Of a stretch of 64,000 bases of DNA, positions 52,841-64,000 are shown in pieces. The notes under the pieces are model-generated. The model ran no database searches. It was not told the DNA's origin and worked only from the letters and a program-made list of their open reading frames with translations. Location: positions 558,001-622,000 of the forward strand of contig JAHBXB010000001.1 of assembly GCA_019636655.1 (NCBI GenBank), given 5' to 3'. How positions within the stretch are numbered: the first letter of the stretch is position 1; every line of letters starts with the position of its first letter. This DNA comes from Phycisphaeraceae bacterium. GTDB taxonomy: Bacteria > Planctomycetota > Phycisphaerae > Phycisphaerales > UBA1924. The translations under genes were made by a program, and so were the position numbers.

Positions 52841-53695
52841 ATGCGCACGGCCAGAGTGTTGGTTTCCTGCGTTGTTGTCGGAGTCATGTCCCTACCGGTA
52901 CTCGCCCAGCCGAATCAGGGTGGCGGCCGCGGGGGCCAACCCCAGCCGCGGGAGCGGCAGGGCGGCGGCCCGCAGGGGGCGGGTGGCCCGCGTCAGGCCA
53001 TGTCCCCGGAGAAGGCCAAGGCCGCCTGGGAACTCGAAGCCCAGAGCGTGGCAAAGAAGCTCGGCCTGAGCGAGAACGAAACCGCCGCGCTCGTCAAGGC
53101 CTACACCCAGGCCCGGGAGAGCCACAACGCGGCGACCCAGGCCTTGCGGGAGCGGGCACGCGAGGGCGGTGGCGGAGAAGGTGGCGACGAAGGCGGTCGC
53201 GGCCGCATGCGTGAGGGCATGCGAGAACTTCAGGAACTCAATGCCGCCGAACGGACCAAGCTGGAGAAGTCGCTGGGATCGTCCCTCTCGCCGGAACAGA
53301 CGCAGAAGGCCGTCGCAGTGCTCGGGACGTTCAATCGGCGTTGGGACCAGATGGTTGACACCATCGCCGGGTTCAACCTCGAGGGCGCCAAGCGCGACCA
53401 GGCCCTCGACGCGATCGAGGAGTTCGTGACCGCGCAGGCCAAGGCGATGCCCGGCCCGGGCGCAAACCGCGAGGACATCGATCCCGAAGCACTCCGCAAG
53501 ACCATGCAGGAGTCCCGGCAGAATCTCACCACGGCTCTCAAGCCCGTGCTCTCCGAGGACCAGATGAAGCAGTTTGAGACGATGCTGAATCCTCGCGGCA
53601 TGGGCGGCCGAGGCGAGGCCCAAGGCGAAGACAACGCTCCGCCACGCCGTCGCGGCCGCGGCCAGCCAGGCGGTGGCGACGGAAACGGGGGCTGA
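52841..53695 (+). CDS. Exported Gly/Arg-rich protein with LTXXQ-like helices
   Basis: A 284-residue protein with a signal peptide (VLVSCVVVGVMSLPVLAQ) and low-complexity ends rich in Gly, Gln and Arg. The middle is alpha-helical and carries LSPEQTQKAVAVLGTFNRRW and, later, LSEDQMKQFETML. The LSxEQ/LSxDQ phrases resemble the LTXXQ motifs of Spy/CpxP-type periplasmic chaperones, but the match is by eye only. GGAG is 8 nt before the ATG, and a strong terminator follows at 53730-53757. Confidence 0.6.
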   Translation: MRTARVLVSCVVVGVMSLPVLAQPNQGGGRGGQPQPRERQGGGPQGAGGPRQAMSPEKAKAAWELEAQSVAKKLGLSENETAALVKAYTQARESHNAATQALRERAREGGGGEGGDEGGRGRMREGMRELQELNAAERTKLEKSLGSSLSPEQTQKAVAVLGTFNRRWDQMVDTIAGFNLEGAKRDQALDAIEEFVTAQAKAMPGPGANREDIDPEALRKTMQESRQNLTTALKPVLSEDQMKQFETMLNPRGMGGRGEAQGEDNAPPRRRGRGQPGGGDGNGG

Positions 53696-53729
53696 TCGCG
53701 AAGCCGGATTCCAACCAGGTGCTTCCGAA

Positions 53730-53757
53730 AGCGGCGCCGTTGGGCGCCGCTTCTTTA
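53730..53757 (+). terminator. Rho-independent terminator
   Basis: A 9-bp perfect stem (AGCGGCGCC / GGCGCCGCT) with loop GTTG is followed by TCTTTA. It ends the exported-protein gene and marks the left edge of the accessory region. Confidence 0.8.
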
Positions 53758-54067
53758 CTGCGCACACACTGTGTAGAAAAGTGGCGCCACCGGCTGCGGT
53801 CCTACCGCAACCAATGGCGCCGGATGGAGGCGCTCCCTACTCAATCACGCATGCGGCTGCCGCACGCGAACTCACCTCCCTGTCCCAATCACTACTAGAC
53901 TCAGCGCGAACCGCAAGCCCTGCGCGACCCTAGTTTGCGTCTCAAGATTCACGATTCCTGGCGCGCCGTTTGCTTCCACTGGCACAGAGCGATTGTGTCC
54001 ATTGTTGAGCTTGTCGGGCGGGTGAGAAGGTGAACCGGACACTCACCGATGCACTCGCCGCTCGGGC
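53758..54067. other. 310-bp non-coding junction between core genes and the island
   Basis: I see no convincing gene here; short open frames lack starts and motifs. It separates the terminator at 53730-53757 from the duplicated unknown genes. No tRNA, integrase or direct repeat marking an island end was recognised in it. Confidence 0.4.
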
Positions 54068-54307
54068 ATGATCGCCGACAACGCGACCGATGCTCTCGCC
54101 CTCGCCTGTCCCCTGTTCGTGCTCTCCGAGAAGGGTGAGGTTGTAACGAAGGCCGACGCGGCGGGCGTCATCCCCGGAGCCACGCCCGATCAATGGATCA
54201 TCGCTCAACTCCGCACACTCCGGCCGCACTGGTGGCCGAAGTCCGCGGGTGGCGGAGCAAGCGGCGGTTCACGGTCGCGGCGGTTGCGATCGTGTCGGCG
54301 CTGCTGA
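54068..54307 (+). pseudogene. Truncated duplicate of the downstream unknown gene
   Basis: The frame encodes CPLFVLSEKGEVVTKADAAG, then DQWIIAQLRTLRPHWWP and SAGGGASGG, and stops soon after in an unrelated basic stretch. The same phrases occur once more in the next gene (LFTVDESGRVVTRKDAADTL, AAWIVSQLRAQRPHYWP, SVGGGAAGG). The two copies align over about 60 residues, then this copy breaks at the Gly-rich point where the next gene's N-terminal helices begin in another frame. It is therefore probably the tail of a broken tandem copy whose beginning is lost. Confidence 0.6.
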
Positions 54308-54807
54308 CCAAGACCCCAGAGGCGGAAGCCCTGATCGCGGAGCGGACGAAGGCGCTGACGGCCGAGCGGGACGCGGCGGTAGCAGAGGCCGCGAAGGTCC
54401 GGGGCGAGCGCGCGGCGGAGCGGATCGACGCGGCGCTGTCCGATGCGTTCGCCAAGTGCGGGGCCAAGCCCGAGCACAAGGCCGACTACCTGACGCTGGC
54501 CCGTGGTCTGTTCACGGTCGATGAGTCGGGCCGCGTCGTGACCCGCAAGGATGCCGCCGACACCCTGCCCGGAGTGGAGCCGGCCGCGTGGATCGTCAGT
54601 CAGTTGCGCGCCCAGCGGCCCCACTACTGGCCGGTGAGTGTGGGCGGTGGAGCCGCCGGCGGCCGGAACGGCATCGCCCTGGGCGATACGGGCTGCTACA
54701 ACCCGCGCAGCCCCAAGTTCAATCTGAGCGATCAGTCTCGCTACGAAAGGCGCTATGGGAAGGCCGCCGCTGACGCCGCGATCCGGCAGTACGGGGGCCG
54801 GGCATGA
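54193..54807 (+). CDS. Unknown island protein (coiled-coil plus conserved tail)
   Basis: A frame of up to 204 codons. The first 30 or so residues from the ATG at 54193 overlap the broken upstream copy and are probably not translated; a GTG at 54292 is a more likely start. Residues then form a charged helix (ALIAERTKALTAERDAAVAE, likely coiled-coil), followed by the duplicated block (LFTVDESGRVVTRKDAADTL ... RPHYWPVSVGGG) and an unusual tail GCYNPRSPKFNLSDQSRYER. The helix-plus-tail design resembles small phage structural or scaffold proteins, but I cannot name a family. Its stop overlaps the next start (ATGA). Confidence 0.5.
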   Translation: MDHRSTPHTPAALVAEVRGWRSKRRFTVAAVAIVSALLTKTPEAEALIAERTKALTAERDAAVAEAAKVRGERAAERIDAALSDAFAKCGAKPEHKADYLTLARGLFTVDESGRVVTRKDAADTLPGVEPAAWIVSQLRAQRPHYWPVSVGGGAAGGRNGIALGDTGCYNPRSPKFNLSDQSRYERRYGKAAADAAIRQYGGRA

Positions 54808-55058
54808 TCGGCGACGGCCTGCTTGACCGTATCAACAAGTTCGCCCAGCGGGTCCGCCTGTCCAATGCTGACCTGTGGGCGATCGTGGAACTGAATCGGT
54901 TCATGGCGGACGACGTGCGCCGGCCCCCAACCGAGGCCGACGTGGAAGCCTGCTGCCGGCACGTCGGCGCGGACGCGAACAAGGTACTGCTGTTCTACTT
55001 CGGCGCTCGCCCTGGGCGGTGGTGGCGGTGGATGCACCGGGTCAGGCGGGAACGATGA
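54804..55058 (+). CDS. Small unknown protein, coupled to the upstream gene
   Basis: An 84-residue protein whose ATG overlaps the preceding stop as ATGA, a sign of translational coupling. It is mostly helical (LLDRINKFAQRVRLSNADLW, AIVELNRFMADDVRR) with an Arg/Trp-rich end (GRWWRWMHRVRRER). No family is recognised. Its position just before the SIR2-like gene and its basic C-terminus suggest an island accessory protein, but the leaderless signal before the SIR2-like gene implies separate transcription of the latter. Confidence 0.5.
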   Translation: MIGDGLLDRINKFAQRVRLSNADLWAIVELNRFMADDVRRPPTEADVEACCRHVGADANKVLLFYFGARPGRWWRWMHRVRRER

Positions 55059-55064
55059 TCCTCG

Positions 55065-55070
55065 TACAAT
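55065..55070 (+). promoter_or_regulatory. Candidate -10 box for a leaderless SIR2-like mRNA
   Basis: TACAAT, one mismatch from the -10 consensus, lies 7 nt before the ATG at 55078. The spacer (CGTCCCC) has no Shine-Dalgarno. Confidence 0.5.
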
Positions 55071-55077
55071 CGTCCCC

Positions 55078-56244
55078 ATGACTGCGAAGATTCCGCCACT
55101 ACCGACGCACAACATCCGCCGACACGTCGTCATCATCGGTGCTGGTGCTAGCCGCGCCTGCTGCCCGAAGGGCGACGCTGCCGGTCGGAAACTGCCTGTC
55201 ATCGCCGACTTCATCGAAACCCTCAAGCTTCGGCCGAAGTTGGAGGCGGCCGGTGTCTACGTCGATGGGGAAAACTTCGAGGCCCTCTACTCCCGGCTCG
55301 TGGCCGGTGGGAAGCACGCCGCGTTGGTGAAGAACCTGGAAGACGAGGTGTTCAACTACTTCACCGAGTTACGGTTGCCGAAGGAACCGACGATCTATGA
55401 CCACCTCGTGCTGTCACTTCGATCGAAGGACCTGATTGCGAGCTTCAACTGGGACCCGTTCCTGATTCAAGCGGTGCGCCGGTGCATCCCGATCGCAAAG
55501 CCCCCTCTCTGCCTGCACCTGCATGGGAACGTGGCGACTGGTTACTGCGTTCGACACGAGCGGCCAAGCATCGGCGACCGGGGCAACAACTGCCGGCAGT
55601 GCGGAGAGCCGTTCGTGGACAGCCGGCTGCTGTACCCCGTGGCCCAGAAGAACTACACGGCTGATCCCCTGATCGCTCTCGCGTGGAAGTCCGTGCAATC
55701 GGCGATGAAGAACTGCTTCCTGCTGACGATCTTCGGATATGGCGCGCCCGCCACCGACGTTGAAGCCGTGAAGCTGATGAAAGAGGGCTGGGGCGACGTG
55801 AACGTGAGGCAGATGGAGGAGACGGAGATCATCGACATCCGCTCGGAAGACGACCTGTGCAAGACCTGGGACCCGTTCATCCACTCCCATCACTACCAGA
55901 CCCACACCACGTTCTACGACTCCATGCTGGGCCTGCTTCCCCGGCGATCGGTGGAGATGATGTTCCGTCAACTGGTCGATGCCGAGTTCATCGAACACTT
56001 CCCGCTGCCGAAGGAAGCGGACTGGTGGGAACTGCGGGAGTGGGCGCGGCCGTTCGTTGAACAGGAGGAAGCCGCCGCGAGCGCCGCTGCTGCCGCAACG
56101 CCAGCCGGCTCCGCCAAATCCCCGGCTCCGAAGCCGAAGCACAGCGTGTCCAAGAAGGCTAAGGCAAAGCCGAAGGCAGGAAAGAAGGCTGCCGCGAAAC
56201 AGCCGAAGGCAAAGAAGAAAAGGGCGAAGAAGAAGAAAGCGTAA
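55078..56244 (+). CDS. SIR2-like (NAD-binding) protein with zinc-knuckle-like Cys/His set and H1-like tail
   Basis: A 388-residue protein of the SIR2-like superfamily, whose defence members degrade NAD+ to stop phage growth. The Rossmann motif HVVIIGAGASRACCPKGD is at residues 16-33. SFNWDPFL carries Asn124 and Asp126, and LHLHGNV carries His149, the positions expected for the catalytic Asn and His. A set Cys157, His160, Cys172 and Cys175 (C-x2-H-x11-C-x2-C) could bind zinc. The last 44 residues are almost only Lys, Ala, Pro and Ser, as in histone H1-type tails, and could bind nucleic acid. A PD-(D/E)xK nuclease gene starts 16 bp after the stop. NADase activity and defence role are inference. 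Confidence 0.8.
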   Translation: MTAKIPPLPTHNIRRHVVIIGAGASRACCPKGDAAGRKLPVIADFIETLKLRPKLEAAGVYVDGENFEALYSRLVAGGKHAALVKNLEDEVFNYFTELRLPKEPTIYDHLVLSLRSKDLIASFNWDPFLIQAVRRCIPIAKPPLCLHLHGNVATGYCVRHERPSIGDRGNNCRQCGEPFVDSRLLYPVAQKNYTADPLIALAWKSVQSAMKNCFLLTIFGYGAPATDVEAVKLMKEGWGDVNVRQMEETEIIDIRSEDDLCKTWDPFIHSHHYQTHTTFYDSMLGLLPRRSVEMMFRQLVDAEFIEHFPLPKEADWWELREWARPFVEQEEAAASAAAAATPAGSAKSPAPKPKHSVSKKAKAKPKAGKKAAAKQPKAKKKRAKKKKA

Positions 56245-56260
56245 TCAGCGGGGCCGCCAG

Positions 56261-57370
56261 ATGGACCAAGAAAACCTGCCTGAATCCGCAGAGCCGAAGT
56301 GGAAGCAGTTCGAGCGCCTCGTGACGGCGATCCACAAGGCCGAAGCGAAGGGCGGCAAAGTTACATGGAATGATTCGATCGACGGCCGCCAGTTCGATGC
56401 CACCATTCGGTTCGAGCACGCGCTATACAGCTATCTGACGGTCATTGAGTGCAAGGACACCGCGAGAGCCGTCCCCGTTGACGACGTGGAAGCGTTCGTT
56501 ACCAAGTCCCGAGGCGCAGGGGCGAACAAGGCGGTGATGGTCAGTTCCAGCGGATACCAAGAGGGCTGCTACAAGGTGGCCCGCGAGAATCGAATCGGCC
56601 TCTACACACTCACGGAACTTGACGAGGCCCCCGAAGGGTATCTCACGGATGACTTGACCCCGGCGGTTCAGGTGCTCGACGTTGAACTTCAGGCAGCCAA
56701 TGGGGCATGGGTACGGCTGCGCGACGAGGGAGGCTCACTCTCCTACTACGTGATGCACACCCGAGTTCTGATCGGCCGCACCGATCGTCCGCTTTGGGAT
56801 TGGATCGACGGCACGGTTCGGCAATCTCTGCGGCGGCTACGTGGCACACCAGCCGAGTTCAGCGCGAAGTTCCCACCAGCCACCCGAGTCCGTCTGCCGC
56901 ACAACGATGGGGAGTTCAACTCGTCAGAGGTGCGGTTCAAGTCCGCCATTGTCGAAGCGCGGGTGATGCGGGACCCTATGGACCCTTCTTTGGTGCCCAA
57001 GGTCTACTCGTGGCGCGATGAACTGGAGGGGACCGAGCGGAAGCTGGCTCCGCATCCGATGGCGCTTGGCCACGAGACGGTGATGACTGGTGGGAAGTTC
57101 TACGTGAATCCGATGCCGTTCTACTACTACTGCCGGGCGGTCACGAACGGGATGGCTCGCCTCGTGCTCTTGGAGTCCTACCAGCATGGAACTCTGATCC
57201 GAGCCGAGCTTGACCAAGAGGCGAAGTACGCCCACTTCTACGTCGAGGTGAAGGATCGGCCGACGTTGAAGCGGCTCCGATACCTGCTGGCCGACTATGA
57301 CCGCCTGGACGCCGAGCACGAGGCGAAAAAACGGCGGAAGGCGCAAGGCCCTGAGAGCCCCAGCTTGTGA
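56261..57370 (+). CDS. Mrr-like restriction endonuclease-fold (PD-(D/E)xK) protein
   Basis: A 369-residue protein. The N-terminal third is an Mrr/restriction-endonuclease-like domain: FERLVTAIHKAEAKGG (Glu18), the metal-binding Asp46 in DGRQFDATIRF, and the E-x-K pair Glu63/Lys65 in TVIECKDTARA, followed by NKAVMVSSSGYQEGCYKVAR, which is the usual fourth strand and helix. The remaining about 250 residues (VQVLDVELQAANGAWVRLRD, FYVNPMPFYYYCRAVTNGMA) are not recognised and may be a sensor or target-binding domain. It starts 16 bp after the SIR2-like gene, so the two probably work together. A role in cutting phage or foreign DNA is inferred from the fold and the island context. Confidence 0.8.
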   Translation: MDQENLPESAEPKWKQFERLVTAIHKAEAKGGKVTWNDSIDGRQFDATIRFEHALYSYLTVIECKDTARAVPVDDVEAFVTKSRGAGANKAVMVSSSGYQEGCYKVARENRIGLYTLTELDEAPEGYLTDDLTPAVQVLDVELQAANGAWVRLRDEGGSLSYYVMHTRVLIGRTDRPLWDWIDGTVRQSLRRLRGTPAEFSAKFPPATRVRLPHNDGEFNSSEVRFKSAIVEARVMRDPMDPSLVPKVYSWRDELEGTERKLAPHPMALGHETVMTGGKFYVNPMPFYYYCRAVTNGMARLVLLESYQHGTLIRAELDQEAKYAHFYVEVKDRPTLKRLRYLLADYDRLDAEHEAKKRRKAQGPESPSL

Positions 57371-57395
57371 CCCCGCTGTGACCCACCAATAGAAA

Positions 57396-57417
57396 AGGGC
57401 CGGTAAAAACCGGCCCT
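57396..57417 (-). terminator. Terminator hairpin in the minus orientation
   Basis: A perfect 9-bp stem (AGGGCCGGT / ACCGGCCCT) with a 4-nt loop is followed on the minus strand by TTTTC. It lies directly after the tRNA remnant read on the minus strand, as if it were the original terminator of that tRNA. On the plus strand it has no T-run, so it would serve the nuclease gene only weakly. Confidence 0.65.
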
Positions 57418-57423
57418 AGAAGC

Positions 57424-57472
<49 letters not shown>

Positions 57473-57583
57473 TGATGACGAAATTCCCCCTCCCACGTGA
57501 TCAAAAACGGCCTTGGGAGCTTCCTGGAGGGGGACAACAAGGTCCAGTGTTGGGTGTCTCATATGCGTCTTTGGGGCTAGTCA

Positions 57584-57614
57584 GGACGCATTGTTGGACG
57601 CATTTCGACGCATT
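57584..57614. repeat. Short direct repeats, block 1 (GACGCATT)
   Basis: GGACGCATT occurs at 57584 and 57596 and CGACGCATT at 57606, with an inverted copy (ATGCGTC) at 57563. The repeats lie on the inner side of the first tRNA remnant and could be integrase arm-type sites or the remains of an integrase gene end. Confidence 0.5.
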
Positions 57615-57701
57615 TTCAGGGACAACCGGACTGATACAAGGAGTGCAGTCCGGTCGTCGAGCGGCGTCGTCCGAGACACCGAGTGCGCCCGACGCGATGT
57701 T

Positions 57702-57747
57702 AGGTGGTGTAGGGCTCGAACCCACAACCACCGGACCAAATGTCCGG
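57702..57747 (-). other. tRNA 3'-end remnant, copy 2
   Basis: Read on the minus strand this has an anticodon-arm-like hairpin (CCGGA-CATTTGG-TCCGG), a T arm (GTGGG-TTCGAGC-CCTAC) and a 3' acceptor half (ACCACCT), again without a 5' half. The base before the anticodon is A, not the conserved T, so it is not a working tRNA. It shares a 21-bp segment with copy 1. Confidence 0.55.
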
Positions 57748-57781
57748 TGTTGCCTGACCTTGTCCGAATCTCTGGGTGCTG

Positions 57782-57838
57782 GGACGCGATTCAGGACGCG
57801 TTTCAGGTGGCTGCCTAGGACGCATTTCAAGACGCACT
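57782..57838. repeat. Short direct repeats, block 2 (GACGCRTTTCA), 12-bp register
   Basis: Copies at 57782 (GGACGCGATTCA), 57794 (GGACGCGTTTCA), 57818 (GGACGCATTTCA) and 57830 (AGACGCACT) are spaced 12, 24 and 12 bp. The block follows tRNA remnant 2 just as block 1 follows remnant 1. Confidence 0.55.
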
Positions 57839-57964
57839 GGCTTTGACGCCTTCTCGTTGGATTGTCTGTCCGGTGCTCGCGTCTGGCGTGCGCCCACGAA
57901 TGCCGGGACCACCGGCCCCCGGGGTAATCCAGACCGGCGTCGCCGACCGCTGGGATAATCCACG

Positions 57965-58075
57965 ATGAGGCGACGACGGCAGCAGGCGACCGAGCCCGAG
58001 CATCGGCTGCACCAACAAAGACAGCGGCTGCACGACCTGGTGCTTGTGAACGTAAATGCCGGCGGTGCGGCATGA
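57965..58075 (+). CDS. Very short basic/Gln-rich frame overlapping the next gene
   Basis: A 36-codon frame beginning MRRRRQQATEPEHRLHQQRQ and ending in ATGA shared with the start of the next gene. No Shine-Dalgarno is obvious and no family is known. The 4-bp overlap is the only support, so this is a tentative call. Confidence 0.25.
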   Translation: MRRRRQQATEPEHRLHQQRQRLHDLVLVNVNAGGAA

Positions 58076-58278
58076 ACTTCGACGTCCTGCTGAGCCGTGT
58101 GCCCGGCATCGGAGAGCACCTGTCGAAGGGCGGTGACACCTATCAAGTGACCGCGGTGCAGCACGTGCCGCTGGATGAGGACGGCAGGGCCTCGTGTGGT
58201 TGGCACGCTCTTCTTGACGCGGTGCTCATTCCGGAGCCGCCTCCCCAACGGCGGCGAAAGACGAAGCAACGACGATGA
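58072..58278 (+). CDS. Small unknown island protein
   Basis: A 68-residue protein with a mixed first part (FDVLLSRVPGIGEHLSKGGD, QVTAVQHVPLDEDGR) and a basic end (PPPQRRRKTKQRR). The GIGEHL phrase looks helix-hairpin-like but is too short to assign. The ATG overlaps a tiny upstream frame as ATGA. It lies between the tRNA remnants and the DUF6236-like gene, preceding a 254-bp stretch without genes. Confidence 0.4.
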   Translation: MNFDVLLSRVPGIGEHLSKGGDTYQVTAVQHVPLDEDGRASCGWHALLDAVLIPEPPPQRRRKTKQRR

Positions 58279-58532
58279 TGCTCTGTCGGCTTCGGACCGG
58301 GCGTCGGGGCTCTCGCCTTCGGCGGAGCCCCGCGCCCGCACGCCGAAGCCAAAGGCCGCCTCTCCCACAACCCCCTGTTGGCTCGGTTCAGGGGCTGAGG
58401 GGCCAGCCAAGCCTTGTGATGTCGACATCGGCGCTCCCCACTCGGTCTGACTGACCCCGCCGCGTACAAACAACGGTGACTAGCAGAGGGACCAGAGCCC
58501 TCTCAGTGCCGTTGCGGTCCATACCCTCGCTC

Positions 58533-59531
58533 ATGCCGGAGATCTGCCTGTATCACCCTTGGATCGAGCCACCGTACCACCGGACTGTTGCGAGCCTGAT
58601 GCTCTACTGGGACCAGCTTCAGACCATCGTGCCATCGAGCATTGCAACTCCCTACCGTCGATTGCACAACCGCAATGCAGTGGATCTGGGGTTTCTGCGT
58701 CCGAGGGTAGTTTCCCCCGAGATGGCATCGGTGGTCAGCGCCGGCGACCAGTTCGTCGCCACGATCGATGATCCAGCGGTCCGGGCCGAGGCAAGACGTT
58801 GCAGAAAGTCCCGCAGACTCAAGGACGTCATGACCGCCGATGTTCACCGCGAGAAGCTCTCGCACGAGCTCCGTTACCGGATCCTCGGCGAGGGTTCTGG
58901 CGCCCAAGACGATTGGGTTGGCATGTCCCACGGATTCGCCTCTTCCTACATGACGGTTCTGGCAGGATGCGTCGCGGCCGAGGACGGCTCGGCACCGGTT
59001 ACCGACCGCCCGACGAGCCTTCCGGTGAGCTTGGCACGGATCGCGGATACATCCGGTGCCAAGGGCGCAGAGGGTGTCGTCGCCCTGCTTTCGCTCAACT
59101 GCATCCACATCAATAACACGACCCCGCTTGTTCGAATCATGAGGTTTCGAGACAAGCACCACGACGCCCTGCTGCGATACCGCAAAGCCGTTCGTACTGC
59201 GTCACGATCGGTGTCCGGAGCCCGCCCTCCAGAGATACTGATTGCGGATGCTGAGGCCCTGGTGCGCGACGAGTTGACACCTACTGAAGTCGACCTGAGC
59301 GGCTATTTGCGCGACCACAACATCGACTTCGGGCTCGCAGCGCTCCAGATCGCGGTGAGCACATTGACGGGCGGATTGGTCGGAGGATGGCCTTCAGCCC
59401 TTGGCGGGGCTGGAGTGAGCGCTTTCTTCACCGCCGTGAACTGGAGGGTGAAGGCGGATAGAGCTCACCAACGCGATGCACTCGGTTACCTGGTTGCTGC
59501 CAAACGCACATTCGGTACACCTCGCTCGTGA
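58533..59531 (+). CDS. DUF6236-like protein
   Basis: A 332-residue protein starting MPEICLYHPWIEPPYHRTVA followed by SLMLYWDQLQTIVPS. This opening (hydrophobic-Tyr-x-Pro, then LYWD-x3-x-IVP) is characteristic of DUF6236-type proteins, which occur sporadically in accessory regions. The middle is helical and polar, and a Gly/Ala-rich, membrane-like segment (ALQIAVSTLTGGLVGGWPSA) lies near the C-terminus. The function of the family is unknown. The start at ATG 58533 fits the family opening; the frame runs back 19 codons. Assignment is from the N-terminal pattern only. Confidence 0.55.
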   Translation: MPEICLYHPWIEPPYHRTVASLMLYWDQLQTIVPSSIATPYRRLHNRNAVDLGFLRPRVVSPEMASVVSAGDQFVATIDDPAVRAEARRCRKSRRLKDVMTADVHREKLSHELRYRILGEGSGAQDDWVGMSHGFASSYMTVLAGCVAAEDGSAPVTDRPTSLPVSLARIADTSGAKGAEGVVALLSLNCIHINNTTPLVRIMRFRDKHHDALLRYRKAVRTASRSVSGARPPEILIADAEALVRDELTPTEVDLSGYLRDHNIDFGLAALQIAVSTLTGGLVGGWPSALGGAGVSAFFTAVNWRVKADRAHQRDALGYLVAAKRTFGTPRS

Positions 59532-59709
59532 GCACACCAGGCTCGGCGCGCCTTGAACGCATGCTGCTCAGCCCCCACGCGTGGCGAACGAGTTTGCCGC
59601 AAGTCCAAAGAGTGCCAAGCAATGGGCAGTTGGCCGCAATACCCTCGGACGGGGCCACAACCGGCTCGCGTCCGAAACGCCGCAGGCATCCTGGATCCGG
59701 CAGGTCTCG

Positions 59710-60735
59710 ATGGAGCACACTGAACAACGCATCACGATCGCATCAATAAGGATCGAGGGCCTGGCCGACGAACTGGCCCAGAAGGCCGATGCGGAGATCC
59801 GAGGCCTCCTCGTTCCGTTCGAGCAATCAGACTTGGAACTGGTCGCGCCCGTGCACCTGTCGGTGCTGGTCACGGATCGAATGGCCGAGCACGTCGACCG
59901 GATCAACCACGAGCACAAATCGCGAGCCGGTCCGTATTGCCGCCAGAAGGCGGCGGTCGCGTCGGGTGGGATCATGCTTACCGCGCCCGGTGGGCCCCCT
60001 CTCCAGATCACGCTGGTGCTCGACAACTTTCCGTGGGGACGGAGCGACTCCGCGGCAATAGTGGAACGCGTGTACATGCTCGCGTTTATGTTCGGGCATG
60101 TCCTTCGTCGAGGGCAAATGGAAGCTGAGGAACAGCCCGGACTGGGCAGAGTCACCGGCTTGCACGCGCGACAGGTTCGAGGCACGGTGGCGGCTGTTCT
60201 CACCGCATACGACATCGACCGCACGGCGATCGCTCTCTGCCGGCACTGGCTGCGGTGCGACAACGGCGACCCTGTCCCCGTTGCCGACTTTCTGAGCGCG
60301 GGCTTCATTGACGCGGCGCACGCACTCGGGGAGCGGCTGAGTGTCTTCGCGACGATCGACGTCCAGTTCTACCGGTTCACCGGCGTGGGTCTGGAGGATC
60401 TGCACCCTCGAATCGGGCCGCTCCTCGCGGAGACCATCCTCATCTTCGTGCACGCCTTGGCCCTCTGCGAGACTGAAGAGCACATCAACTCACTCTTGCA
60501 GGCCGCCTCGCAAAGCCCCGGCTTGAAGGAGTATCTCTTGCCCGAGACCGACGCCATCTTCAAGGCGATCAGCGCGAACGAGCAGGCGGATCGGGAGGGG
60601 CAGATGGCCGCCGTCTTCGAGCGGATTCTGGGCCGCCTGGGCCTTTGCATCGAGGACCTGCCCGAGGACGGCCTGCACGTCCACGTGTCCGAGCCGGTGC
60701 TGTGCCCGCTCACTCCCCGTTCGGAGGGGGCTTGA
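59710..60735 (+). CDS. Unknown island protein
   Basis: A 341-residue protein of no recognised family. It is mixed alpha/beta, with RINHEHKSRAGPYCRQKAAV and AIVERVYMLAFMFGHVLRRG in the first half and a helical C-terminus (PGLKEYLLPETDAIFKAISA). There is no signal peptide; a long helical-rich fold is likely cytoplasmic. The frame extends back to a GTG at 59581, but ATG 59710 after GGCAGG is preferred. Its end overlaps the end of the DUF4238 gene from the other strand by 26 bp. Confidence 0.5.
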   Translation: MEHTEQRITIASIRIEGLADELAQKADAEIRGLLVPFEQSDLELVAPVHLSVLVTDRMAEHVDRINHEHKSRAGPYCRQKAAVASGGIMLTAPGGPPLQITLVLDNFPWGRSDSAAIVERVYMLAFMFGHVLRRGQMEAEEQPGLGRVTGLHARQVRGTVAAVLTAYDIDRTAIALCRHWLRCDNGDPVPVADFLSAGFIDAAHALGERLSVFATIDVQFYRFTGVGLEDLHPRIGPLLAETILIFVHALALCETEEHINSLLQAASQSPGLKEYLLPETDAIFKAISANEQADREGQMAAVFERILGRLGLCIEDLPEDGLHVHVSEPVLCPLTPRSEGA

Positions 60736-61840
60736 TCTCCGATTTGGCGCCGTCGCCGGGTGCTTGTTTCGATCGCCCCTTCCCGTCCCGTAGGTCCTTC
60801 CACCCGTTGCGGGCCATCTCCGCCAGCTCGACTTCCGAGATCAGCGGCTCGCCGGTGCCGATTCGCGCCGCGTACTCCGATTCCCGATCGGTGCATTGAC
60901 TGGCGAAGAACACCGCATCGCTGAGCTCTACCGAGGCGACATTGATTCGCTCGTCGGAGAGCACGCCGTCGATCGGTCTCGGAGAAGCGACGAGCACGGC
61001 GCTCGAGCTGATGGGGCAGTACACAGCCTGCCACGTGTCCTTGAACACAAACGGCGACGAGATTCGACCCTCCATCGAGATCGCGAACACACACCCGTCG
61101 CCGAGGAGGAAGGTACCCTTGGGGCGTCTGATGACCTCCCAGTGCGAGGGCGCGAAGGACGCGGGCGCATCGGCAAGGTCGAGCAGGGCCGAGAGTCCGC
61201 GGATTTGTCCCTTTGCAGCCACGTTGGTGAAGTCGAAGAGCTGGCCCGCTTGCTGGCGGGCCCATCGAAGAAAGCCCTGCAGATCCAGGGTGCCGACATG
61301 ACGCGTCAGCAAGTCGCGGAAGGCGTCCACGCGGGCGGGGTTCTCGAGGAGTTCCAGCGCCCGCGTCGCGTAGGGCGTGGGCAGCTTGGCGAGGTCTTTC
61401 CGGAGAAGGTCGTCGCACTCGCGGTGCGCTTGGGCCAACATCGCGGCCTTCGCTTCGTCGCTCCCCGCGGTGCGCTCGAGCTGGTCCATCATCGTGGAAC
61501 CGGTGGCCGCAAACTGTTGGCGCGTTGCGTTGGTGCGGACGGTGAGCATCCAGATCAGCTGCCGGAGCGTTGCCGCGTGCTCCGCGGGGGATTGGCCCTG
61601 ATCAACAGCGACAAGCGCTCTCGCCTGGGTCTCCTCGACTCCCTGAAGACGCTCTTCGACTCCGTTTTCGGGCTTGCCGTAAAAGAACGAGCTCACTCCG
61701 ACGTCCTTTGTGCTGAGCTCCTTGGGCGATCTGTCCTTCGAGAACTGCCACACGAATCGCTTCTTGCCATCTGCTCGCGACGCGAACCGATTGAGCAGAA
61801 ACCGCGGCACATAGTGATTGCGTTCCTTCGTGGCGGACAT
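60710..61840 (-). CDS. DUF4238-family protein
   Basis: A 376-residue protein with the DUF4238 opening NHYVPRFLLNRFASRADGKK (residues 8-27), followed by WQFSKDRSPKELSTKDVGVS, the region that is conserved near the start of the family. The rest is helical until a beta-rich segment (WEVIRRPKGTFLLGDGCVFA) and a Lys/Pro tail. DUF4238 proteins are widespread and of unknown function, often in accessory islands. It follows the large gene to its right on the same strand after 24 bp, so the two are likely co-transcribed. Confidence 0.75.
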   Translation of the reverse strand: MSATKERNHYVPRFLLNRFASRADGKKRFVWQFSKDRSPKELSTKDVGVSSFFYGKPENGVEERLQGVEETQARALVAVDQGQSPAEHAATLRQLIWMLTVRTNATRQQFAATGSTMMDQLERTAGSDEAKAAMLAQAHRECDDLLRKDLAKLPTPYATRALELLENPARVDAFRDLLTRHVGTLDLQGFLRWARQQAGQLFDFTNVAAKGQIRGLSALLDLADAPASFAPSHWEVIRRPKGTFLLGDGCVFAISMEGRISSPFVFKDTWQAVYCPISSSAVLVASPRPIDGVLSDERINVASVELSDAVFFASQCTDRESEYAARIGTGEPLISEVELAEMARNGWKDLRDGKGRSKQAPGDGAKSEIKPPPNGE

Positions 61841-61864
61841 CGATTCACTCCTGACGGTGCCCCA

Positions 61865-64000
61865 TTAGAGGTCGCGAAACTCGTCACGCCGGCCCTCCGC
61901 GTCACGCTGCTTGCCGGCGGTCTCGTAGCCGTCGGCGACACTGCGGAGGACCGCGGCGGTGCGGGGTGAATCCCGCTCGAGCTTCGCGGCCATCGCGCGA
62001 TACGCATCACGCATCTTGCGCTCGGGGGCGCCGGTGGGCCCGACGTAGTGCACGCCGCGCCTGTTGTGGATGGCGATGGCCAGGCCCGACTCGAGCCTCT
62101 GGCTCGCGAGCCGCTCGATCCGCTGTCGAACCGGTGCACAGGGCCAGGCTCCATCCTCGTCGGCGGGCGCGAAGGCGAGGACCTTGCCGATGTGGGAATC
62201 GCACAGGTCGAGCCGGTCGCAGTCGCCTGCCAGTCGGCGGGCGCTGTCGATCCACTCTCCCAGTGCTTTTTCGTCGACGGTCCCCTCCACGGCCGGCTTG
62301 GTGGCCGCGTCGTCGGAGCTTGCAGCGCTTGCGGGCACCGTGGGCCTCGCAGTCCGGAGGTCCAGACCGGGGACGACGTGCCACGCCTCCAGCAGCTTCC
62401 ATGCCTGTCTAGCACGAAGCCGGCGCTGATCCGCGTTCGAGGATGGGGTTTCCGGCGTCGCCGGCTCGTCGGGAACGGCCTCACCCTTGGCACGATAGAC
62501 AAGTTGGAGGAGTTCCACGAACAACTCCGGCGATCTCGCCAGCTGTCTGCACAGCGCCCTTAGACCCCGGCCAGAGTGCTCCAGCACGGGCAGCCAGTGC
62601 CACTCCCAGTTCACGAGCAGTCGTTCGACGTCGTCGCCCGACCCCGCGTGCTCCTCGATGAAGGCCAGAACTTCCGAGACGCTGTGGGCCAACCACGACA
62701 GAGAGGGTGCGCCGAGCTCCGCGGCGGGATCGTGCTGCGGCAGCTGCCTGGTGACGAGCTCGCAGAGGGCAAGGACGCGAGCGACCGAATCTTCGCCCGA
62801 TTTGCTCCTCACGGTGTCGTGCGTCAGCAGGGCTGCGAGCGAGATCGCGGTGTAGGGCCGTCCCGCCTCGATCAGCCGGGACAGAGCGACCTCGGCCTCT
62901 TCAATCCGCAGGAAGCGGAGACTCGCCTGGGTCCAGTACCGTGCCGCCAGCTCGCGGTCCATGTCGTCCAGCGCCTTCCACAGGTCCACTGAGGGGGCCA
63001 GCGAGAGCGCGAAGCGGACCGCAGCATCGCGGGGACCAGCCTCACGGATCCGTTGGAGGTGGCCAGCGCCCCACGCTGACCCAACGCGTTGTTCGCGCCT
63101 TCGCACGAACCCATCGCCGAAGCGGCGGTTGGTGGTCCATTGCACGTCGGTTGCGCCGGAGATGAGGGTCTCATCGATCATCGCGATCTCCTCCTCGTCC
63201 GTCAATACGAGCTCGGCGAGCGTGGCGCCGAGCGCCTCGGGCGATTCGACCTCCTTCGACCAGTCCACCACACCGCGGAGGCCCTCCTCCACTCGAACGG
63301 CCTCGACGGCCGCCACCCGCGCCCGGGTGACCTCGTCCTGCTCCTCCTTCCAGGTGGCCTTGCGATTCCCGAGGCCGCGGGGGTTCGCGACAAACAGCCA
63401 ACGATGCTGGTCGCGGGCGCGGTCCGACTCGAACTTCTTTGCGAGCGGACGGAGCACCTCCAACTCGGCCGGCTCCAAGGCCCAATCCGCCTCCGGGAAC
63501 TCCTCGTGGTGCTGGATCAGCTCGCGCAGCCCCTCCGCGAGCGCCAGCCGTTCCTCGTTCGACCACCCTCGCGCATCCAAATTCATCAGTGCATTGGCCG
63601 CGGCTCCCGCATGCGCCGGCACGGATCGGAACAGCACCGGGAGTTCGCGGACGAGCTCCTCCCATCTCTGCGGGAGGTGACCGGCCATGGTGATGACCCG
63701 ATCAACGAGGGACTCGGTGAACTCGCGGTAGTCGGCCATGCTGGGCTGCTTGAAGTCCGCCGGCCGCCAGTCCCGGAACTGCGGCTCGGCGCTCGGACTC
63801 GAGACGTCATGATCCGACGGCAGAAGGGCGAGGGAGCACCGCCACGCGGCGTCGGGGCATCGACTGCTGACGTGATCGAACGCGTCCAATCGTTGCGACA
63901 ACGATGCGGCCGTCCCGGGGTGCCAGGGCAAGAGGATCTCTCGGAGGCTGTTCTTGGGCCGGTTGGCCAGCCGGCCCCCCGGATCGGCCTCCGCGAGCCG
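61865..64000 (-). CDS. Very large helical protein, 5' end outside the window
   Basis: The frame is open on the minus strand to the right edge, so only the last 711 residues are visible. They begin with GGRLANRPKNSLREILLPWH and continue PGTAASLSQRLDAFD, then a mostly alpha-helical region with many Glu, Ala, Leu and Arg (for example HEEFPEADWALEPAELEVLR). The opening phrase, NRP-x-SLRE-I-x-x-PW, recurs, as far as I recall, in long (over 1000-residue) island proteins with an N-terminal effector domain, but I cannot name the family with certainty. The effector, if present, is outside the window. It is followed by DUF4238 on the same strand. Confidence 0.6.
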   Translation of the reverse strand, partial: RLAEADPGGRLANRPKNSLREILLPWHPGTAASLSQRLDAFDHVSSRCPDAAWRCSLALLPSDHDVSSPSAEPQFRDWRPADFKQPSMADYREFTESLVDRVITMAGHLPQRWEELVRELPVLFRSVPAHAGAAANALMNLDARGWSNEERLALAEGLRELIQHHEEFPEADWALEPAELEVLRPLAKKFESDRARDQHRWLFVANPRGLGNRKATWKEEQDEVTRARVAAVEAVRVEEGLRGVVDWSKEVESPEALGATLAELVLTDEEEIAMIDETLISGATDVQWTTNRRFGDGFVRRREQRVGSAWGAGHLQRIREAGPRDAAVRFALSLAPSVDLWKALDDMDRELAARYWTQASLRFLRIEEAEVALSRLIEAGRPYTAISLAALLTHDTVRSKSGEDSVARVLALCELVTRQLPQHDPAAELGAPSLSWLAHSVSEVLAFIEEHAGSGDDVERLLVNWEWHWLPVLEHSGRGLRALCRQLARSPELFVELLQLVYRAKGEAVPDEPATPETPSSNADQRRLRARQAWKLLEAWHVVPGLDLRTARPTVPASAASSDDAATKPAVEGTVDEKALGEWIDSARRLAGDCDRLDLCDSHIGKVLAFAPADEDGAWPCAPVRQRIERLASQRLESGLAIAIHNRRGVHYVGPTGAPERKMRDAYRAMAAKLERDSPRTAAVLRSVADGYETAGKQRDAEGRRDEFRDL

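Follow-up and report, generated by a model that had tools for sequence, protein, structure and literature searches.

A SIR2-like gene family with zinc-ribbon-type cysteines and an adjacent Mrr-like nuclease gene on mobile-element debris of a Phycisphaeraceae bacterium

Described SIR2 proteins and the genes of the window

Sirtuins of the SIR2_2 group are described, in the relevant portions of PMC12700824 and of PMC11820453 on acetic acid bacteria, as having no zinc module or zinc binding, and a portion of the former presents the zinc module as perhaps a later development tied to a shift from NAD hydrolysis to deacetylation. The SIR2-like gene considered here was found in a stretch of 64,000 nucleotides from a Phycisphaeraceae bacterium, referred to below as the window, and is followed on the same strand, after a gap of 16 bp (56245-56260), by a gene for an Mrr-like nuclease (Table 1). 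In an earlier note on this DNA, the two genes had been joined into one defence system, one protein sensing or cutting phage DNA and the other depleting NAD+. The GAGAS, Asn124 and His149 residues of the first protein and the Asp46, Glu63 and Lys65 residues of the second were present where that note had placed them, as was the nuclease gene itself, but the genes were not inherited together. We consider it rather likely that they are two independent cargo genes on island debris, namely a one-gene, NAD-consuming SIR2 immune effector with a zinc ribbon and a stand-alone Mrr-like nuclease. The SIR2-like family, more than the gene pair, is the real find.

Table 1. Features at and around the two genes (window positions)
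Feature	Position	Strand	Remarks
Pair of overlapping ORFs (frames differ) matching a head scaffolding protein of phages; prophage debris	54068-54807	+	phrog_206
SIR2-like gene P0001	55078-56244	+	388 aa, ATG start; 75-row family alignment A2, AF2 model, SIR2 fold
GAGAS, NAD-binding loop of SIR2-like protein (aa 21-25)	55138-55152	+	G21 and G23 in 75/75
Asn124-Trp125-Asp126, catalytic Asn motif (within FNWDP)	55447-55455	+	75/75; profile-aligned with NxD/NYD of canonical and SIR2_2 sirtuins
His149-Gly150, catalytic His (within LHLHG)	55522-55527	+	75/75; falls on LHG in the canonical and SIR2_2 alignments
Putative zinc ribbon C157...C172-x2-C175	55546-55602	+	Cys in 73, 74 and 73 of 75; aligned with canonical zinc cysteines; short strands in model
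Ala/Pro/Lys-rich basic tail of SIR2-like protein	56083-56244, from about aa 336	+	long in 2/75 rows; low pLDDT
Mrr-like nuclease P0002, most likely an independent gene	56261-57370	+	369 aa, ATG start; Mrr_cat; D46, E63, K65
Copy of tRNA-Asp 3' end (att-like remnant)	57420-57464	-	45 bp, 100% to C1:667594-667638

Judged by their conserved residues and by the codon-position pattern against the nearest relative, both ORFs are real genes and not chance ORFs. Thus, the SIR2-like gene and that of its nearest relative, locus L041, agreed at 87.0% of first, 92.9% of second and 54.6% of third positions in 339 codons. An alignment of the window protein with 74 full-length relatives, drawn from 87 loci (A2), contained H16, G21, G23, N124, W125, D126, H149, G150, D227, R289 and R290 in all 75 rows, the row of the window included. 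Most relatives were unfused proteins of about 340 aa, and the rows of the tree fell into 18 named groups. The lysine-rich C-terminal tail reported in the earlier note was present in the window protein but was not a feature of the family, since a long basic tail was noted in only one other row (L079); it began where homology to L041 stopped and was poorly predicted in the structural model, with pLDDT block means of 48-70 from about aa 341.

Matches to the SIR2-like protein were obtained in 8 of 392 genomes of Planctomycetota, counting that of the window, and in 5 of 72,556 plasmid records. A search of 84,980 species genomes with a single peptide pattern gave 265 stretches with relatives, 80 of which were kept. 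Seven relatives were recovered from viral contigs with alignment A1 and none with single proteins, and no match was seen across 50,697 phage records. One plasmid-borne relative, annotated as hypothetical (L011, Vibrio coralliilyticus plasmid pOCN014), lay near a second member of the SIR2 family, a gene pair of McrBC type and a SLATT gene. Relatives from cultured strains included those of Aeromonas rivuli (L045) and Mesobacillus subterraneus (L092). A truncated copy of the gene, corresponding to query aa 182-279, was noted beside apmA on a multiresistance plasmid of Enterococcus faecalis (L013, 8001-8294), and a similar fragment occurred on a viral contig (L127, 288-596).

The SIR2-like protein of L041 was 83% identical to that of the window and was encoded on a contig of 4,970 bases that had been assigned to a Magnetovibrio bin. 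Identity of the DNA was 78.5% over 1,009 bases, from one base before the start codon to near codon 336, and a blastn comparison of window positions 53001-64000 with L041 gave nothing on either side of the gene. The two sequences were joined in the tree with full support, and this pair joined the planctomycete rows with 83 to 86% bootstrap support. No transfer between phyla is claimed, because the contig of L041 may be mis-binned.

No Pfam family was above cut-off for the SIR2-like protein, and neither it nor the nuclease was named by PADLOC 2.0.0 or NCBIfam; the single NCBIfam match of the former was below cut-off and inside the lysine-rich tail. Sequence searches of solved structures gave nothing convincing for either protein, and among the matches listed from open-licence PMC literature no title or abstract start concerned the pair or the SIR2-like family, which may be one clade of Bonhomme et al. 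2025 (Science). The family thus offers a candidate immune effector that is encoded by one gene and is named by no model scanned from these three collections. We propose, tentatively and at somewhat less than even odds, that it represents an unrecognised one-gene immune family, extending from Planctomycetota to Bacillota, in which an antiviral, NAD-consuming SIR2 core is combined with a canonical zinc ribbon. If so, the family would connect the immune and canonical branches of the sirtuins as a living link, and it would run counter to the rule of a missing zinc module in immune SIR2 proteins.

Fold, active site and zinc-type cysteines of the SIR2-like family

The AlphaFold2 model obtained with A2 had a pLDDT of 88.9 and a pTM of 0.85, and the SIR2 Rossmann fold, the GAG motif and the Asn and His-Gly active site of the SIR2 superfamily were all evident from this predicted model and the alignments. 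The active site was intact, with its Asn and His in every row, and lay in a confidently predicted fold of the immune type. In Foldseek comparisons, SIR2-HerA was the first match (E 1.9e-8) and CobB the second (3.0e-8), so close behind that Foldseek alone cannot tell immune from canonical sirtuins. VIA-align Z scores were 15.0 for SIR2-HerA, 14.9 for PsSIR2, 14.0 for KomBC, 13.9 for ThsA, 13.0 for DSR2 and 12.9 for CobB. With 17 SIR2_2 proteins, profile comparison gave a probability of 98.4% (P 7e-15); with 20 canonical sirtuins of Planctomycetota, the probability was 83% (P 9e-6). N124 was placed on NxD/NYD and H149 on LHG in both alignments. From the predicted fold and the residues, binding of NAD+ and removal of its nicotinamide would be expected of the SIR2-like protein.

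Three cysteines of the window protein, C157, C172 and C175, were profile-aligned with zinc cysteines of canonical sirtuins. One relative (L117) was without all three, which had been lost together, and another (L081) retained one in register. A C-x(2-4)-C pattern within 60 residues after HG was present in 66 of the 75 family members and 17 of the 20 canonical sirtuins but in none of the 17 SIR2_2 proteins. Three of the four canonical zinc cysteines are conserved in the family, while the position of the candidate fourth ligand, residue 160, is not fixed, being H in 31 rows, D in 28, C in 7 and another residue in 9 (G 6, E 2, N 1). The absence of a zinc-binding module by which SIR2_2 proteins are characterized in the portion of PMC12700824 concerned does not appear to hold for the family, since it carries these cysteines. 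Taken together, the profile match to SIR2_2 and the sirtuin-type cysteines identify the family as SIR2_2-like with a putative zinc-type insert.

Genomic setting, inheritance and alternative readings

The two genes lay between traces of different mobile elements. Just upstream of the SIR2-like gene, two ORFs matched phrog_206 (E 4.8e-15 at 54193-54807 and 6.5e-8 at 54068-54307), and just downstream of the nuclease gene, a duplicate of the tRNA-Asp 3' end was found. The island with tRNA remnants described in the earlier note was recognizable from this copy, from the intact tRNA-Asp about 52 kb beyond it (C1:667596-667670) and from an integrase match beside the latter (C1:666832-667413). Because the copy pairs with the intact tRNA-Asp and the integrase match, a roughly 52-kb integrative tRNA-Asp island (C1:615420-667638) probably starts at the end of the nuclease gene. 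The tRNA-Asp 3' end occurred a third time, with 98% identity, at C1:544832-544876, and a further integrase match was seen at C1:536003-536533. At window positions 57690-57770, a second tRNA-like 3' fragment resembled the end of tRNA-Asp (84% identity, 37 bases). With prophage ORFs upstream and the tRNA-Asp copy downstream, the pair therefore sits on mobile-element debris. Unrelated cargo genes are often adjacent on such debris.

The nuclease matched Pfam Mrr_cat (PF04471) over aa 13-121 with E 3.4e-10, above cut-off, and its D-(D/E)xK motif was intact, with D46, E63 and K65 identical in all four aligned rows, i.e., those of the window protein and of three full-length relatives. The C-terminal part, about 240 aa, was conserved in the same rows; no PADLOC or PHROGs match was obtained for the protein, and a single-sequence structure prediction, with a pLDDT of 35.4, was useless for the fold. 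Full-length relatives were located away from the SIR2-like genes, in L165 (43%), L173 (37%) and L168, the last on an Agrobacterium plasmid, before a VPA1262-family gene. Nuclease matches occurred in 19 of the 392 genomes of Planctomycetota.

Defence genes were noted near relatives of the SIR2-like gene. With genes delimited by a crude gene caller, no neighbour family held a fixed place in the 87 loci and none spanned more than 10 of them. The largest neighbour clusters, found in 10, 9 and 9 loci, were interpreted as ABC ATPases, tyrosine recombinases and serine recombinases. In 29 of the 80 loci that had a downstream ORF, this ORF shared the strand of the SIR2-like gene and was no more than 100 bp away. 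Nine of these 29 ORFs and the upstream protein of L113 were scanned singly, with matches to HsdR (L055), Schlafen-AlbA (L071), Cas1 (L083), Mrr with TPRs (L093), DUF2779 (L101), DUF4365 (L105), DUF4238 (L107) and Mrr (L113) and no clear family for L076 and L099; reverse transcriptase and nSTAND3 were also among the neighbours. In L055 (6400-10616), the SIR2-like gene overlapped the start of the type I restriction HsdR gene by 4 bp, as if riding in the restriction operon. The DUF4238 gene of L107 (11021-11977), directly behind the SIR2-like gene, matched the PADLOC DUF4238-Pers model, and a DUF4238 gene also occurred near the pair in the window, at 60710-61840 on the minus strand. At 1e-10, 82 neighbours matched 242 PADLOC models as opposed to 81 for 82 control proteins, which were sampled at 15 other sites of carrier genomes and themselves included some defence-model matches (methylase, AbiEi). 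Since PADLOC models are redundant and models, not proteins, were counted, this difference is a hint and not a test of island enrichment, suggestive of a location of the relatives in defence islands.

The joining of both genes into a single defence system, as set out in the earlier note, draws on their close spacing on one strand, on the intact active sites of both proteins and on the Mrr_cat proteins that adjoin a few other SIR2-like relatives, but appears very improbable from the pattern of inheritance. Among the 392 genomes of the phylum, the SIR2-like and nuclease lists overlapped in that of the window only, which is weak evidence alone since both proteins are rare in this sample. Of 80 carrier genomes of SIR2-like relatives, 79, many of them metagenome bins that may be incomplete, could be searched with the nuclease, and relatives of the latter were found in three. 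In G402, a full-length match (38%) and the SIR2-like gene were on different contigs, of 40,606 and 89,564 bases, respectively; in G403, a weak match and the SIR2-like gene were likewise on separate contigs, of 4,024 and 8,343 bases. The sole adjacent case, G463 (locus L113), involved a weak, N-terminal match to a 193-aa Mrr_cat protein encoded 190 bp upstream rather than downstream. Conversely, a tblastn search with the SIR2-like core against 27 loci with nuclease matches, most with short flanks, detected only the window (L022) and L171, which is the same locus as L113; the loci without a match were L023-L040, with flanks of at most about 1.5 kb, L165, L168-L170 and L172-L174. Mrr_cat was present in 3 of 82 neighbour proteins of SIR2-like relatives, two of which, in L093 and L113, were unlike in build and position, the former being downstream and with TPRs and the latter upstream and short. 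In L041, moreover, the next gene, 97 bp on, encoded a 776-aa nSTAND3 protein and not a nuclease relative. The genes of the window are thus most likely separate genes that lie together by chance and not one antiviral operon; at 16 bp apart on one strand they could be co-transcribed, and hence a private pairing within this genome is conceivable.

For the SIR2-like protein itself, the putative zinc ribbon raises the question of a true NAD+-dependent deacylase that acts on host or phage proteins in a housekeeping or regulatory role. The spacing of the cysteines and the rank of CobB among the structural matches are in keeping with such an enzyme, but its motifs are mostly missing. Thus, PxFR and FGE, counted with equal patterns in both sets, were present in 19 and 17 of the 20 canonical sirtuins whereas each was present in 1 of 75 family members (L126 and L045, respectively) and both were absent from the window protein; neither occurred in the 17 SIR2_2 proteins, and all 75 family members contained a YP/FP..K.Y motif in their place. 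The patchy distribution of the family in the phylum, the canonical sirtuin already present in the genome of the window (L156) and the defence genes near relatives also make a deacylase improbable. Without the deacylase motifs, NAD+ hydrolysis or ADP-ribosyl transfer would be likelier than deacylation. Either of these two reactions could be carried out with this fold and these catalytic residues, and DNA ADP-ribosylation by some sirtuins of conflict systems is proposed in a portion of PMC9503650. An ADP-ribosyltransferase of protein or DNA, rather than an NAD+-depleting hydrolase, nevertheless seems unlikely, as the small neighbour families include no constant partner for removal of the mark, although a lone transferase would need none, and the 25 Pfam families listed, out of 93 for the 82 neighbours, included no macrodomain.

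With the two genes regarded as independent cargo, a phage cue or oligomerisation would switch on the SIR2-like protein, which would then split nicotinamide off NAD+, leading either to depletion of NAD+ or to ADP-ribosylation of a target, and infection would be aborted by one or the other. The putative zinc ribbon and C-terminal helices would be likely sites of regulation or assembly, and the shortness of the protein suggests control by oligomerisation or by direct binding of a cue from phage or host. The nuclease, to judge from its Mrr_cat domain and D-ExK residues, would cut incoming DNA alone.

Comparison with known systems

P0002 resembles Mrr-type and type IV restriction endonucleases in its catalytic domain and differs from them in its C-terminal part. 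The SIR2-like family shares with AbiH (PF14253) the single-gene form, and two of the 75 rows gave weak Pfam matches to AbiH, the better one at 7.7e-6; a below-cut-off AbiH match in G454 was, by position, the SIR2-like gene of L104 itself. Identity with AbiH was rejected, since P0001 gave no PF14253 match and the profile comparison with two AbiH proteins was weak (probability 9%).

Likeness to SIR2-HerA (Nezha; PDB 8wld, 8w9l) consists of the SIR2 fold over aa 7-288, with an immune-type core, whereas identity is about 13% and the zinc-type cysteine cluster is a difference. No HerA match was found beside the SIR2-like gene among the window proteins scanned, eight by Pfam and six by PADLOC, and neither a ThsA with SLOG nor the TIR protein ThsB of Thoeris was found among the same proteins. 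The SIR2 domains of ThsA, KomBC, DSR2 and Avs5 are alike in fold (Z 12.3-14.0) and, presumably, in NAD+ consumption, but the protein described here is single and short and has no SLOG or STAND match.

In common with canonical sirtuins (CobB, SIRT2/3; PF02146), the family has the His-Gly motif and the spacing of the zinc cysteines; it differs from them in its near lack of PxFR and FGE, and the window protein has no PF02146 match. The Pfam model of SIR2_2, PF13289, did not match P0001 at E 1 and was not among the five families matched by the 75 rows at E 0.01. It is nevertheless the FAM118 and SIR2_2 (SIRim) sirtuins of PMC12700824 that the family matches in profile, and from these it differs in the zinc module, which is missing from them according to the portion of that source concerned, whereas the cysteines are present in the family. 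With a widespread, SIR2_2-like family that has zinc-type cysteines and is free of deacylase motifs, the argument on the zinc module in that portion of PMC12700824 becomes testable.
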